The position numbers were made by a program, and so were the translations under genes. The notes below the pieces were generated by a model. That model saw only the letters and a list, made by a program, of their open reading frames with translations. It did no database searches and was not told the DNA's origin. This document shows, piece after piece, positions 28,293-34,146 of a stretch of DNA of 64,000 bases. Origin of the DNA: Armatimonadota bacterium (GTDB lineage: Bacteria; Armatimonadota; Fimbriimonadia; Fimbriimonadales; Fimbriimonadaceae). The DNA lies in NCBI GenBank assembly GCA_018268375.1, contig JAFDWS010000003.1:1-64000 (forward strand). The letters are read 5' to 3'. The first letter of the stretch is position 1, and every line of letters begins with the position of its first letter.

Positions 28293-28321
28293 CCGTCGTG
28301 CGGGATTTTCCTGCACGACGG
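28293..28321 (+). terminator. Strong hairpin between the GspE/PilB gene and tRNA-His
   Basis: CCGTCGTGC pairs with GCACGACGG, extended by GGGA/TCCT around a TTT loop, and is followed by CATTTCCC. It is most likely a terminator for the ATPase gene. It ends only 5 nt before the mature tRNA, so it could also lie in the leader of the tRNA-hisS transcript. Confidence 0.6.
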
Positions 28322-28326
28322 CATTT

Positions 28327-28402
28327 CCCTGGATAGCTCAGCTGGTAGAGCGTCGCTCTGTGGAAGCGAAGGTCATGGGTTCGAGACCCGTTCCAGGGAC
28401 CA
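28327..28402 (+). tRNA. tRNA-His (GTG) lacking G-1 and C73
   Basis: Full cloverleaf: acceptor CCCTGGA/TCCAGGG, D-arm GCTC/GAGC, anticodon arm TCGCT-CTGTGGA-AGCGA with anticodon GTG at 28360-28362, T-arm ATGGG-TTCGAGA-CCCGT, discriminator A at 28399 and encoded CCA at 28400-28402. Nearly all bacterial tRNA-His genes encode G at -1 and C at 73. Here -1 is T and 73 is A. hisS begins 16 nt after the CCA, so both are probably on one transcript. Confidence 0.96.
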
Positions 28403-28418
28403 TTCCATGGAGGATCGG

Positions 28419-29786
28419 ATGCTCACGAACTACCCAGGCACACAGGACAGGTTCACAGACGACATCCTGCTGCGCCAGTGGATCCTGTCCAAGTTCCAGG
28501 AGGTGTACCGCCTGCTCGGTTTCAGCCTCCTTGAGACACCGTGCTTGGAGCCGGTCGAGATACTGGCCAAGTCGGGCGGTGTCGGCGACCAGCCGACCTT
28601 TGTCTTCACCGACAAGCACCGCGATCAAGTGTGTCTAAAACCCGACCAGACCGTTTCGTTGCGACGGGTCGTTGAGCAGCACCGGTTGCGCCTGCCTTTC
28701 CCGAGGCACCAGGTGGGCTTGAGCTTCCGTCAGGACAAGCCAGAGAAGGGGCGATGGCGCGAGTTCTTGCAGTGTGACGCCGACTTTGTCGGCGCGCCCC
28801 TCGGCACCGCCGACGCCGAGACCGCACTCTGGCTCCTCAAGGGGTTCGAGGCGGTGGGGCTGCCGGAGACGGTGCTTTACGTCAACACGAGGGCCATTCT
28901 CAAAGGGCTCTATGCCTCTCTTGCTGACGCTACGTTCGACGAATTGACGTTCACCCGAGCGGTTGATAAAGTTCCGACAAACGGCGACCTCCAACCGGTG
29001 CTCCAGTACTTGTCGGGCGGAGACGAGGAAGGCAAAACAGCCGTCGACCCCGCCAGACGAACTGCGGCTGAGCGGGTGGCCAAGTTGATTTCTGGACTTC
29101 GAGATTTCCGCGAGTTGGCGTGCCGAGAAGCTTTGGCGAAGTTCGCGGCGGCTTATCCGGACCTTGCGGAGGAAGCGGCCCAGCTTGGTGCGCTCATCGA
29201 TTGCGCGGCCGAGGCTGGCGCACCAGTCGACCGGATGGTTTTCGATCCGTGCCTAGCTCGAGGGATGGATTACTACACAGGCCCCGTCTTCGAGGCGCAC
29301 TGCCCGGCTTGGCCCTATGGCAGCATAGCCGGCGGCGGGCGCTACGACAATATGATCAAAGTGGACGACGAGCCCCAACCTTCGGTCGGTGCGTCGTTCG
29401 GCCTCGACCGTATCGAGCAGGCGCTCAAAGACTTGGGCCGAGTACCTGCCGAGTGTACGCAACGGATCGCTGACGCCCTCGTCGTGGTCAAGCCGGACTG
29501 GTTGCCGGGCGCGATGCGGGTGGCGAAGCAGTTGAGGGACGCGGGAGTCCGCACGATCGTCTACCCCGATCCAGCCGAGACGTTCAAACTGCAGACGCGG
29601 TATGCGGCCAAAAACGGTATCCCGTGTGCGGTCTTCTTCGGCCCGGACGAGCAGGCGGAGGGAAAGGTGACGGTGCGCGAAATCACTCCCGAGCGAGAGG
29701 TCTTCGACAAGGATGCCGCACGCGCGGCAAAGAACGTGACGGTGCCGCTTGACCAGTTGGTTGAGACGGTTCGTTCCCTGGGGTGA
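28419..29786 (+). CDS. hisS: Histidyl-tRNA synthetase, eukaryote/alphaproteobacteria-like type
   Basis: Class II synthetase charging tRNA-His. Motif 2 region FRQDKPEKGRWREF (103-116) is followed by LQCDADFVGAP instead of the common bacterial form. The histidine-A site is ARGMDYYTGPVFE (280-292), motif 3 is VGASFGLDRIEQAL, and an anticodon-binding domain fills the C-terminus. These intact sites and the C-terminal domain argue against HisZ, the non-catalytic paralogue. KPDQT replaces the usual RPEGT. The start is the ATG at 28419 with GGAGG 5 nt before it; the ATG at 28407 lies only 4 nt after the tRNA end and has no SD. The gene overlaps hutH by 4 nt. Confidence 0.93.
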   Translation: MLTNYPGTQDRFTDDILLRQWILSKFQEVYRLLGFSLLETPCLEPVEILAKSGGVGDQPTFVFTDKHRDQVCLKPDQTVSLRRVVEQHRLRLPFPRHQVGLSFRQDKPEKGRWREFLQCDADFVGAPLGTADAETALWLLKGFEAVGLPETVLYVNTRAILKGLYASLADATFDELTFTRAVDKVPTNGDLQPVLQYLSGGDEEGKTAVDPARRTAAERVAKLISGLRDFRELACREALAKFAAAYPDLAEEAAQLGALIDCAAEAGAPVDRMVFDPCLARGMDYYTGPVFEAHCPAWPYGSIAGGGRYDNMIKVDDEPQPSVGASFGLDRIEQALKDLGRVPAECTQRIADALVVVKPDWLPGAMRVAKQLRDAGVRTIVYPDPAETFKLQTRYAAKNGIPCAVFFGPDEQAEGKVTVREITPEREVFDKDAARAAKNVTVPLDQLVETVRSLG

Positions 29787-31417
29787 GCATGGACGAATCC
29801 AACCATTTGGACGTGTCGAAGGATTGGAACCTCGACGATGTCGTCGCGGCGTCCCGGTTTTCGGTCCGACTCGATCTTCCGGAAGCGAGGGCCAAGATGC
29901 TCGACGAGTCCCGGCAACGCGTCTTGACGAAGCTCGAAGGGTCTCACGAGCGCCTGTACGGGTTCAACACCGGGTTTGGCGATAACCGCAACCGCAAAAC
30001 CGTTTCGCCCGAGGCGAGAGGGGTCATACAAGACAATTTGATCAAGAGCCACGCGTCGGGGTTTGGCGACGCACTGCCTGTGGAAGTGGTCCGGGCCGCG
30101 TTAGCCGTGCGCGTGAAGGCACTGGCGCTAGGGCACTCTGCTGTTCGGTCAGAAGTGGTCGGGGCTCTTTGCGATCTTTACAACAATGGGTTGGTCCCTC
30201 ATGTGCCGACCTACGGAAGTGTGGGCGCCAGCGGTGACCTCGCTCCTCTGTCGCATCTCGCGCTGCCCTTGCTGGGGCAGGGGAGAGTCCTCCGAGATGG
30301 CGAATGGGTCGAGGTTTCGAAGGAACTCATGGAGTCAGAAGGCGTGCGATCGCTCCGGTACGACGACCACTCTGTGCTCGGATCGAAAGAAGGGCTCGCG
30401 CTCAATAATGGGACGGCGTTCATGACTGCCTGGCTGTGTCTTGCTGCCGAGGATGCCCGAGGGACACTGGCTACGGCGGACCTAGCCTTAGCCCTTGGAA
30501 TCGAGGCTATGTGCGGCGTCATGGACGCTTATGACGAACGTGTCCAAGCATTACGCCACCATCATGGGGTTGCCAAAGTGGCGAGCCGAGTCCGGTCCCT
30601 CCTTCAGGACTCCGACCTTGTGATTCGAAACGGAGCAGCGAGCGACGCCGCGCGTAGAGCCCGCACCGTTGGGGACGATGGAGTGCTCGACAGTGTGCAA
30701 GACGACTACAGCCTTCGGGCCGGATCTGTCGTGCATGGGACGGCCAGCGACGCAATCGGAACAGTAGCGGCGACGGCGTTCGTCGAGATCAATTCCGTCA
30801 CCGACAACCCCGTTGTGGTCGACTCCGACACGATCCTCTCGGGTGCGCATTTCCACGGCATGCCCCTCGCCTTTGCTGCCGACCAACTCCGCACGGCGAT
30901 GGCGATTGTCGCTGGAATCAGTGAGAGACGAGTGGCCAAGCTGATGAACGACAAGCGCAACTATGGCCTGCCACGCCACCTCGTCATGGATGACCCCGAT
31001 GGCGTCAAATCGGGCTGGATGATCGCCCAGTACTGCGCGGCCTCCATGGTGAACGAGCTTAAGACGCGCTCGATGCCCTACTGTGTCGGCAATGTGACGA
31101 CCGGCAACGAAAGCGAAGACTTCGTGAGTATGGGGGCCAACGCCTGCCGCGCCGCCTACGAGTGTGCCTCCGTGTTCCGCGGAATTGTGGCGATCGAACT
31201 GGCAGCAGCGGTCAGGGCGTTGCTCATACGGGTCGGGTGCCCGTCACCGGATGACGACCTGTCGGGCACGGGTCTGTCTGCAGCCGCGCAACATACGATC
31301 GAGGCCTTCTGGAGAGCCGGGATTCCGGTCTCGCACACGGACGATCGCCCTCTAGAACCGATCTTTGCCCAGACCGCGGAGCTCATCGAGGGTGGCGACC
31401 TGACGGCTTGGGCCTAA
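29783..31417 (+). CDS. hutH: Histidine ammonia-lyase (MIO family)
   Basis: 544 residues. GSVGASGDLAPLSH holds the Ala-Ser-Gly (149-151) that cyclises to the MIO prosthetic group. YGFNTGFGD and NLIKSHASG match the substrate region, where the His after Ser is typical of histidine lyases rather than Phe/Tyr lyases. NESEDFVSMG keeps the Glu of the HAL motif, though His is replaced by Phe. The reaction is histidine to urocanate plus ammonia. No hutU, hutI or hutG is nearby; instead it overlaps hisS (GTGA). A start at the GTG 29783 or the ATG 29789 is possible. An MIO aminomutase is the main alternative. Confidence 0.87.
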   Translation: MSMDESNHLDVSKDWNLDDVVAASRFSVRLDLPEARAKMLDESRQRVLTKLEGSHERLYGFNTGFGDNRNRKTVSPEARGVIQDNLIKSHASGFGDALPVEVVRAALAVRVKALALGHSAVRSEVVGALCDLYNNGLVPHVPTYGSVGASGDLAPLSHLALPLLGQGRVLRDGEWVEVSKELMESEGVRSLRYDDHSVLGSKEGLALNNGTAFMTAWLCLAAEDARGTLATADLALALGIEAMCGVMDAYDERVQALRHHHGVAKVASRVRSLLQDSDLVIRNGAASDAARRARTVGDDGVLDSVQDDYSLRAGSVVHGTASDAIGTVAATAFVEINSVTDNPVVVDSDTILSGAHFHGMPLAFAADQLRTAMAIVAGISERRVAKLMNDKRNYGLPRHLVMDDPDGVKSGWMIAQYCAASMVNELKTRSMPYCVGNVTTGNESEDFVSMGANACRAAYECASVFRGIVAIELAAAVRALLIRVGCPSPDDDLSGTGLSAAAQHTIEAFWRAGIPVSHTDDRPLEPIFAQTAELIEGGDLTAWA

Positions 31418-33452: not shown

Positions 33453-33529
33453 CGGGATGTGGCTCAGCTTGGTAGAGCGCCTCGTTCGGGACGAGGAGGT
33501 CGTAGGTTCAAATCCTATCATCCCGACCA
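33453..33529 (+). tRNA. tRNA-Pro (CGG)
   Basis: Complete cloverleaf: acceptor CGGGATG/CATCCCG, D-arm GCTC/GAGC, anticodon arm CCTCG-TTCGGGA-CGAGG with anticodon CGG, T-arm GTAGG-TTCAAAT-CCTAT, A73 and encoded CCA. C1:G72 with A73 is normal for bacterial tRNA-Pro. The two GIY-YIG units begin in its variable loop. Confidence 0.96.
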
Positions 33530-33816
33530 AGTTTGGTAAGGAGGAGAGACGTGTGGATGGTTTACATCCTGCGCAGCACAAAAACCGGTCGCCACTACAT
33601 TGGTTTCACGAATGACATCAACCGCCGCCTCGCGGAGCACAACGGCGGATTGAATCGTTCGACCAAAGGACGCGGGCCATGGGAAGTGGTTCACACCGAA
33701 GGTCATGGGTCGAAGGAGGCCGCAGTTCGCAGAGAGCTCCAGATCAAGTCGTGGAAATCAGCACGGGCGATTTGTCGCCTCGTTGACTTCGGTCGTCCTT
33801 GGTAGAGCTTTCGGGA
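33497..33816 (+). repeat. Tandem GIY-YIG/tRNA unit, copy 1
   Basis: 320 bp from the variable loop of tRNA-Pro through the GIY-YIG gene to the anticodon-arm remnant of the next tRNA piece. Copy 2 is offset by exactly 320 bp and nearly identical. By eye only two substitutions occur, near 33763-33765 and its counterpart. After each tRNA end comes ACCAAGTTTGGT, a small inverted repeat. Confidence 0.9.
33551..33805 (+). CDS. GIY-YIG nuclease family protein, copy 1
   Basis: 84-residue single-domain endonuclease of the UvrC-N/UPF0213 type: VYILRSTKTGRHYIG holds the GIY-YIG strands, NDINRRLAEHN the arginine helix and RRELQIKSWK the catalytic glutamate helix. Its target is unknown; relatives include homing and mobile-element nucleases as well as housekeeping ones. 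GGAGG lies 6 nt before the GTG at 33551. The gene starts 21 nt after tRNA-Pro, and its stop TAG is part of GGTAGAGC, the D-arm of the next tRNA remnant. It is almost identical to the copy at 33871. Confidence 0.88.
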   Translation: MWMVYILRSTKTGRHYIGFTNDINRRLAEHNGGLNRSTKGRGPWEVVHTEGHGSKEAAVRRELQIKSWKSARAICRLVDFGRPW

Positions 33817-33849
33817 AGGTCGTAGGTTCAAATCCTATCATCCCGACCA
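33798..33849 (+). pseudogene. tRNA-Pro 3' remnant between the GIY-YIG copies
   Basis: Starts inside the D-loop (CTTGGTAGAGC), lacks the 5' half of the anticodon arm, then follows tRNA-Pro exactly from AGGTCGTAGG to CCA. No 5' acceptor strand exists, so it cannot fold as a tRNA. Confidence 0.85.
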
Positions 33850-34146
33850 AGTTTGGTAAGGAGGAGAGACGTGTGGATGGTTTACATCCTGCGCAGCACA
33901 AAAACCGGTCGCCACTACATTGGTTTCACGAATGACATCAACCGCCGCCTCGCGGAGCACAACGGCGGATTGAATCGTTCGACCAAAGGACGCGGGCCAT
34001 GGGAAGTGGTTCACACCGAAGGTCATGGGTCGAAGGAGGCCGCAGTTCGCAGAGAGCTCCAGATCAAGTCGTGGAAATCAGCGCCGGCGATTTGTCGCCT
34101 CGTTGACTTCGGTCGTCCTTGGTAGAGCGTCCCGATTCTTTCGGGA
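33817..34146 (+). repeat. Tandem GIY-YIG/tRNA unit, copy 2
   Basis: The same unit as copy 1 with two substitutions in the gene and 10 extra bases (GTCCCGATTC) in the tRNA anticodon arm at its end. A partial third repeat (34147-34200) covers the tRNA 3' end and the GGAGGAGAG leader, then stops. Confidence 0.9.
33871..34125 (+). CDS. GIY-YIG nuclease family protein, copy 2
   Basis: 84 residues, differing from copy 1 by one residue (Pro for Arg in SARAICRL). All catalytic motifs are kept, including the YIG strand, the Arg of NRRLAEHN and the Glu of RRELQIK, and so are its SD and GTG start. Both copies therefore look functional and the duplication recent. The stop codon again lies in a tRNA D-arm remnant. 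Confidence 0.88.
   Translation: MWMVYILRSTKTGRHYIGFTNDINRRLAEHNGGLNRSTKGRGPWEVVHTEGHGSKEAAVRRELQIKSWKSAPAICRLVDFGRPW

Follow-up and report, generated by a model that had tools for sequence, protein, structure and literature searches.

The tRNA-His and hisS genes

The window, by which we mean the whole stretch of 64,000 nucleotides that was analysed, carries a tRNA-His gene that is followed by hisS, coding for histidyl-tRNA synthetase (HisRS), and by a hutH-like gene (Table 1). The acceptor stem of the tRNA, CCCTGGA/TCCAGGG, is an ordinary 7-bp stem that begins with the pair C1:G72, and the CCA end is encoded in the DNA (28400-28402). The pair G-1:C73 is among the most conserved tRNA identity elements. 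An encoded G-1 paired with C73, the canonical bacterial histidine identity, is absent here; the gene has T-1 and A73 instead, and A73 is also present in four relatives. The preliminary description had read T at -1 and A at 73, and this is borne out by ARAGORN, Rfam and our reading of the stem. A wrongly read canonical 8-bp stem was ruled out because U8-A9 can be placed in the 7-bp register only. In having A73 without an encoded G-1 the gene resembles the alphaproteobacterial type of tRNA-His, with the relative G200 having a G at -1 that faces A73. The U72 of that type (G1:U72) is absent, and C1:G72 was found in all five genomes that carry this tRNA. At -1 these five genomes have T (the window and two relatives), G (G200) or C (G222), and a further tRNA-His on a large element, described below, has A. 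None of the host's other tRNAs is clearly the parent of the tRNA-His linked to hisS: its nearest matches are the other tRNA-His genes of such tRNA-His/hisS cassettes (74-79% identity), and these are barely nearer than the host tRNA-Met or tRNA-Pro. Two related tRNA-His genes (L033:1408-1483 and L211:1415-1490) have G at positions 8 and 14, where U8 and A14 are almost universal, a coupled change of a tertiary pair.

Table 1. Features of the tRNA-His/hisS locus, with positions in the window
Feature	Position	Strand	Basis or remark
Strong hairpin between gspE/pilB and tRNA-His	28293..28321	+	5 nt before tRNA position 1
Nucleotide -1, T; no encoded G-1	28326	+	
tRNA-His(GUG)	28327..28402	+	ARAGORN; Rfam RF00005, 65.6 bits at 28327-28399
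Discriminator base A73	28399	+	Canonical type would be C73
Ribosome-binding site GGAGG for the hisS start at 28419	28408..28412	+	Sequence
hisS, divergent HisRS of 455 aa	28419..29786	+	Pfam, NCBIfam, AlphaFold model
HisRS motif 2 region, FRQDKPEKGRWREFLQCDADFVG	28725..28793	+	
Codon of E109, residue of the motif-2 loop	28743..28745	+	
hutH-like ammonia-lyase, GTG start	29783..31417	+	TIGR01225, 401 bits, below its cut-off

The first in-frame ATG of hisS is at 28407. Four HisRS homologues begin with (M)LTNYPG or near it and GGAGG lies just before the ATG at 28419; therefore 28419 is the preferred start, and a longer hisS from 28407 is less likely. With this start hisS begins 16 nt past the CCA of tRNA-His, which confirms the distance given in the preliminary description, and from this spacing the two genes are likely to be in one transcript. 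The protein scored 107.7 bits with PF13393 (cut-off 25) and 46.2 bits with PF03129 (cut-off 21). Its score with the NCBIfam hisS equivalog TIGR00442, 264.1 bits, is below the cut-off of 286.75, which is a naming rule and no test of function, so that the score marks a divergent member. The AlphaFold model has a pLDDT of 90 and its best match in the PDB is the HisRS 6nhi, followed by the human, Nostoc and Thermoplasma HisRS. Thus, by the Pfam scores and the structural matches the protein has the class II fold and the catalytic and anticodon-binding domains of HisRS.

The motif 2 string quoted in the preliminary description was found as quoted. In this motif, whose loop in HisRS covaries with C73 (review PMC9976931), the loop is EKGR or ERGR in the five enzymes of this type, and the form xPGR of the alphaproteobacterial type is absent. 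At residue 109 all five have E, whereas 22 of 25 other enzymes have Q; in the alphaproteobacterial type this residue is usually G, A or D, with P next to it.

The hutH-like gene and the stop of hisS overlap by 4 nt, and the two genes adjoin each other in each of the four genomes of genus g1 (the genus to which the window belongs, see below); beside the pair in G222 hutH is absent. The order pilB/gspE, tRNA-His, hisS, hutH occurs in three of them; in the fourth, G259, hutH is kept downstream and the upstream gene is different. From 28419 to 31417 hisS and the histidine ammonia-lyase-like gene thus form an operon of a histidine-charging and possibly a histidine-degrading gene. The hairpin upstream of tRNA-His, which may be the end of the upstream gene, was seen also in G236 and not clearly in the other genomes. 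Elsewhere in the window (33453-34125) a tRNA-Pro(CGG) gene is followed by two near-identical tandem GI-YIG-like ORFs of 90 aa, about 320 bases apart.

Lineage and distribution in the Fimbriimonadaceae

In the RpoB tree, in which the rows of G026 and of an Acidobacteria MAG were ignored because they seem to be wrong frames, the genome lies far from three alphaproteobacteria and, with full support, among the members of its own family. The lineage is not alphaproteobacterial; its family is most probably Fimbriimonadaceae, of the phylum Armatimonadota, and its genus, g1, is distinct from Fimbriimonas (g2). This upholds the suggestion in the preliminary description that a lineage outside the alphaproteobacteria would add another case of a switched histidine identity.

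HisRS of this type was found in 5 of 85 family genomes (32 genera), namely, the four of genus g1 and one Fimbriimonas, G222. The identity is 69-80% for genus g1 and 57% for G222. In all five carriers a tRNA-His with C1:G72 and A73 is directly upstream of hisS, whereas every readable family genome without this HisRS has C73 (55 of 55, made up of 32 + 7 + 16 genomes in which tRNA-His was read by patterns and BLAST, with G242 unread). The association of this HisRS type with an A73 tRNA-His is thus complete among the readable genomes of the family, and the arrangement, recurring as it does in the five carriers, is more than chance. Matches to the A73 pattern were also obtained in other Armatimonadota; those that were typed are variable arms of tRNA-Leu and not tRNA-His.

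The pair in the window is the only one on the chromosome. When the whole genome was searched with the protein, HisRS was matched once; a second match on contig C7 (40 residues, E 0.002) falls in no HisRS frame. Neither this search nor the typing of the genome's tRNA matches gave a canonical hisS or a C73 tRNA-His elsewhere, and the A73 pair stands. There are two tRNA-His genes in the genome and both have C1:G72 and A73, the second being on contig C5, which strengthens the reading of the window copy, the only chromosomal one. Thg1 (PF04446) was not found in the four genomes of genus g1 in a search in which control genomes gave matches. The eukaryotic arrangement, in which Thg1 adds G-1 opposite A73, is therefore not that of genus g1.

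Phylogeny of the HisRS

In trees of 100 HisRS and of a careful set of 50, the five enzymes make up a single clade with a very long stem. This clade sits within the broad bacterial type, together with enzymes of Weeksellaceae, Planctomycetota, candidate phyla and alphaproteobacteria, and outside the clade of alpha-type enzymes; neither the Trypanosoma nor the Thermoplasma enzyme groups with it. AU tests of trees in which the five enzymes and the alpha-type enzymes form one clade gave p values of 0.54, 0.26 and 0.21, and this arrangement was not rejected. From these trees the HisRS appears to be a deep, long-branched, separate lineage, with which kinship to the alpha type would be compatible. 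The enzyme had been called eukaryote/alphaproteobacteria-like, a label that fits it only loosely; the trees place it outside both types, although kinship with the alphaproteobacterial type is not rejected (p 0.2-0.5).

The supported clade of alpha-type enzymes (100/99) takes in enzymes from a Bacteroidetes MAG (L088), an Acidobacteria MAG (L146), a Hydrogenedentota MAG (L157) and the Armatimonadota genome G004 (L039). The tRNA-His of these four genomes has G1:U72 and A73 without G-1, and it adjoins hisS in L039 and L088 (related loci are L242, L246, L256 and L261). Since both the enzyme and the tRNA are of the alpha type in these four, the alpha rule extends beyond alphaproteobacteria, with the proviso that the carriers outside that group are MAGs in which mis-binning is possible. 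With G004 holding the alpha type and genus g1 its own type, Armatimonadota hold two different switched systems. A tRNA array in G004 (L268, C48, about 107,800-110,830) includes a second tRNA-His, which apparently has C73 but T at -1.

Comparison with known histidine systems

The alphaproteobacterial tRNA-His and HisRS have been described by Ardell and Andersson 2006, Wang et al. 2007 and Yuan et al. 2011, as cited in PMC9976931, PMC4284800 and PMC3875453. Common to Caulobacter and its relatives and to genus g1 are the lack of an encoded G-1, A73, the absence of Thg1 and a changed motif-2 loop. The pair described here differs in that it is in Armatimonadota, has C1:G72 and not G1:U72 (in Caulobacter U72 is a determinant), has the loop E-K/R-G-R and not G-P-G-R, has an enzyme that the trees place outside the alpha clade, and always has the tRNA gene next to hisS. 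Both pairs are expected to behave as orthogonal to their E. coli counterpart. With the eukaryotic cytosolic system it has A73 in common, but the enzyme groups elsewhere, the context is bacterial and the first pair is C1:G72. The tRNA-His of Trypanosoma brucei and Acanthamoeba likewise lack G-1 (PMC9976931, PMC4284800). The canonical pair, as in Fimbriimonas ginsengisoli, has the same class II HisRS fold, GUG anticodon and single pair per genome; unlike it, the pair in the window lacks G-1:C73, has E as the motif-2 residue, and its enzyme is only about 30% identical to the canonical enzyme of the family.

No report of this case was found in the literature, in a search that covered few of the subscription papers.

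A probable switch of the rule for histidine identity

The most likely explanation, to which we give a probability of roughly 0.8, is that the recognition rule has been switched: this tRNA-His and HisRS would be the sole histidine-charging pair of the genus and would have replaced the canonical pair once for genus g1 and once in the G222 lineage. RNase P would cut the precursor at +1, leaving a 7-bp stem and a free A73, and G-1 would be neither encoded nor added by Thg1; the bases found at -1 (T, T, G, T, C and A) are not strictly constrained, which fits such a cut. Judging from conservation and from the Caulobacter precedent, the HisRS would read A73, perhaps G72, and the anticodon, and not G-1:C73, and would not charge a G-1:C73 tRNA. 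Base 73 is probably read by the changed motif-2 loop, in which Q has given way to E109. Apart from tRNA-His, the only tRNAs of the host itself that combine C1:G72 with A73 are the three tRNA-Pro, and since tRNA-Pro shares this acceptor end it must be the anticodon that separates tRNA-Pro from tRNA-His.

Three other explanations of the tRNA and its enzyme were considered. The apparent lack of a canonical pair could be an artefact if tRNA-His and hisS of that type were missing from the assembly, which is 92.6% complete and not closed, but the same state was found in four more genomes, and no canonical tRNA-His was found in G200, G236 and G222, which are 96-99% complete, so that we consider this hardly credible. 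Another explanation is that histidine identity still uses position -1, with RNase P keeping the nucleotide there (U-1:A73) in an 8-bp stem and the enzyme being relaxed on the base. T at -1 in three of the five genomes and G in a fourth would suit this, and U-1 could pair with A73. However, U-1 beside A73 is common among ordinary precursor tRNAs that are cut at +1, and neither the C of G222 nor the A of the element tRNA pairs with A73. Even with the HisRS of the archaeon A. pernix, which tolerates other bases at -1 (PMC9976931), as a precedent, this explanation is improbable. More weight, though still that of an unlikely account, goes to the pair being a fast-evolved branch of the alpha-type A73 system that was transferred to Armatimonadota, with G-1 lost once and G1:U72 later changed to C1:G72. 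The AU tests leave a clade with the alpha type unrejected and the alpha-type pair itself occurs beyond alphaproteobacteria, including G004. On the other hand, both trees put the five enzymes outside the well-supported A73/U72 clade, G1:U72 is in every alpha-type tRNA-His that was read and in none of the five, and the xPGR of that clade is missing from the loop.

How G222 came to have the pair can be explained in two ways. G222 nests in Fimbriimonas beside G216 (RpoB identity 90%), whose tRNA-His has G-1:C73, and both flanks of its pair are unrelated to those in genus g1, one being an SGNH-like hydrolase gene and the other a transposase-like gene (names read from the sequence). The contig with the pair has a GC content of 0.50, which fits G222 (0.48-0.54) and not genus g1 (about 0.54-0.65), so that a stray genus g1 contig is unlikely. 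The differing flanks and the canonical sister G216 point to transfer of the pair, and the simplest account is that it entered the G222 lineage as one cassette, in which case the linked tRNA-His and hisS would have displaced the resident canonical pair. The preliminary description had proposed that the two genes could move or evolve together, and with linkage in five of five carriers the pair does behave as a unit. Among named genomes the best of the matches listed are 32-37% identical, so no donor is evident there, and viral contigs gave three distant HisRS and none close. Alternatively, the common ancestor of genus g1 and Fimbriimonas already had the pair, and G222 is the one Fimbriimonas that did not lose it, without any transfer between the genera. 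The divergence between the G222 and genus g1 HisRS, about 1.1 changes per site against about 0.5 for RpoB, scales with that of RpoB, and therefore the two may go back to an old common origin that was followed by many losses. This would call for long coexistence of both systems and for several losses, including one in G216, the close sister of G222, and the flanks of the pair are not common to G222 and genus g1; we regard it as doubtful.

Meaning of the probable switch

To our knowledge one bacterial group has so far been known to have dropped G-1:C73. That the pair is a further switched histidine identity outside this clade, with another base rule, is a well-supported reading of the sequences. 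It would be the second exception, of a different build and in another phylum. The enzyme is linked to its tRNA and there are close relatives with and without the switch, which makes it testable whether an essential identity rule can change when tRNA and enzyme are transferred jointly, and not by drift in steps. We put forward more tentatively, at slightly less than even odds, that this is a third, independently evolved bacterial histidine rule (C1:G72, A73, no -1), and that the linked genes spread horizontally as a cassette and displace the resident canonical pair. If so, it is an observed replacement of an essential tRNA identity by gene transfer. The pair is also a candidate orthogonal HisRS/tRNA pair, and a tRNA-His that now has the acceptor end of tRNA-Pro raises the question how ProRS and HisRS keep apart.

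A large low-GC element on contig C5

The second tRNA-His of the genome (C5:95581-95652) has C1:G72 and A73 without G-1. It lies in a low-GC stretch of about 0.5 Mb that is on the same contig as chromosomal genes (C5, 1 to about 532,000; L062-L067 and L281-L295), with a GC content of 0.53-0.56 in samples and of 0.60 thereafter. In this stretch there are about 60 tRNA genes, arranged in groups by amino acid, and genes for an endolysin-like protein and a CCA-adding enzyme (tRNA nucleotidyltransferase). It may be a huge provirus or another kind of giant element that brings along an almost full second set of tRNAs. Its tRNA-His follows the rule of the host, as expected if the host HisRS charges it, and this is independent support that these bases matter. 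The same element has a tRNA with a CUA anticodon (C5:504181-504252; L028, L066), called Pyl by ARAGORN; it is possible that this is an amber suppressor and that the element recodes TAG.
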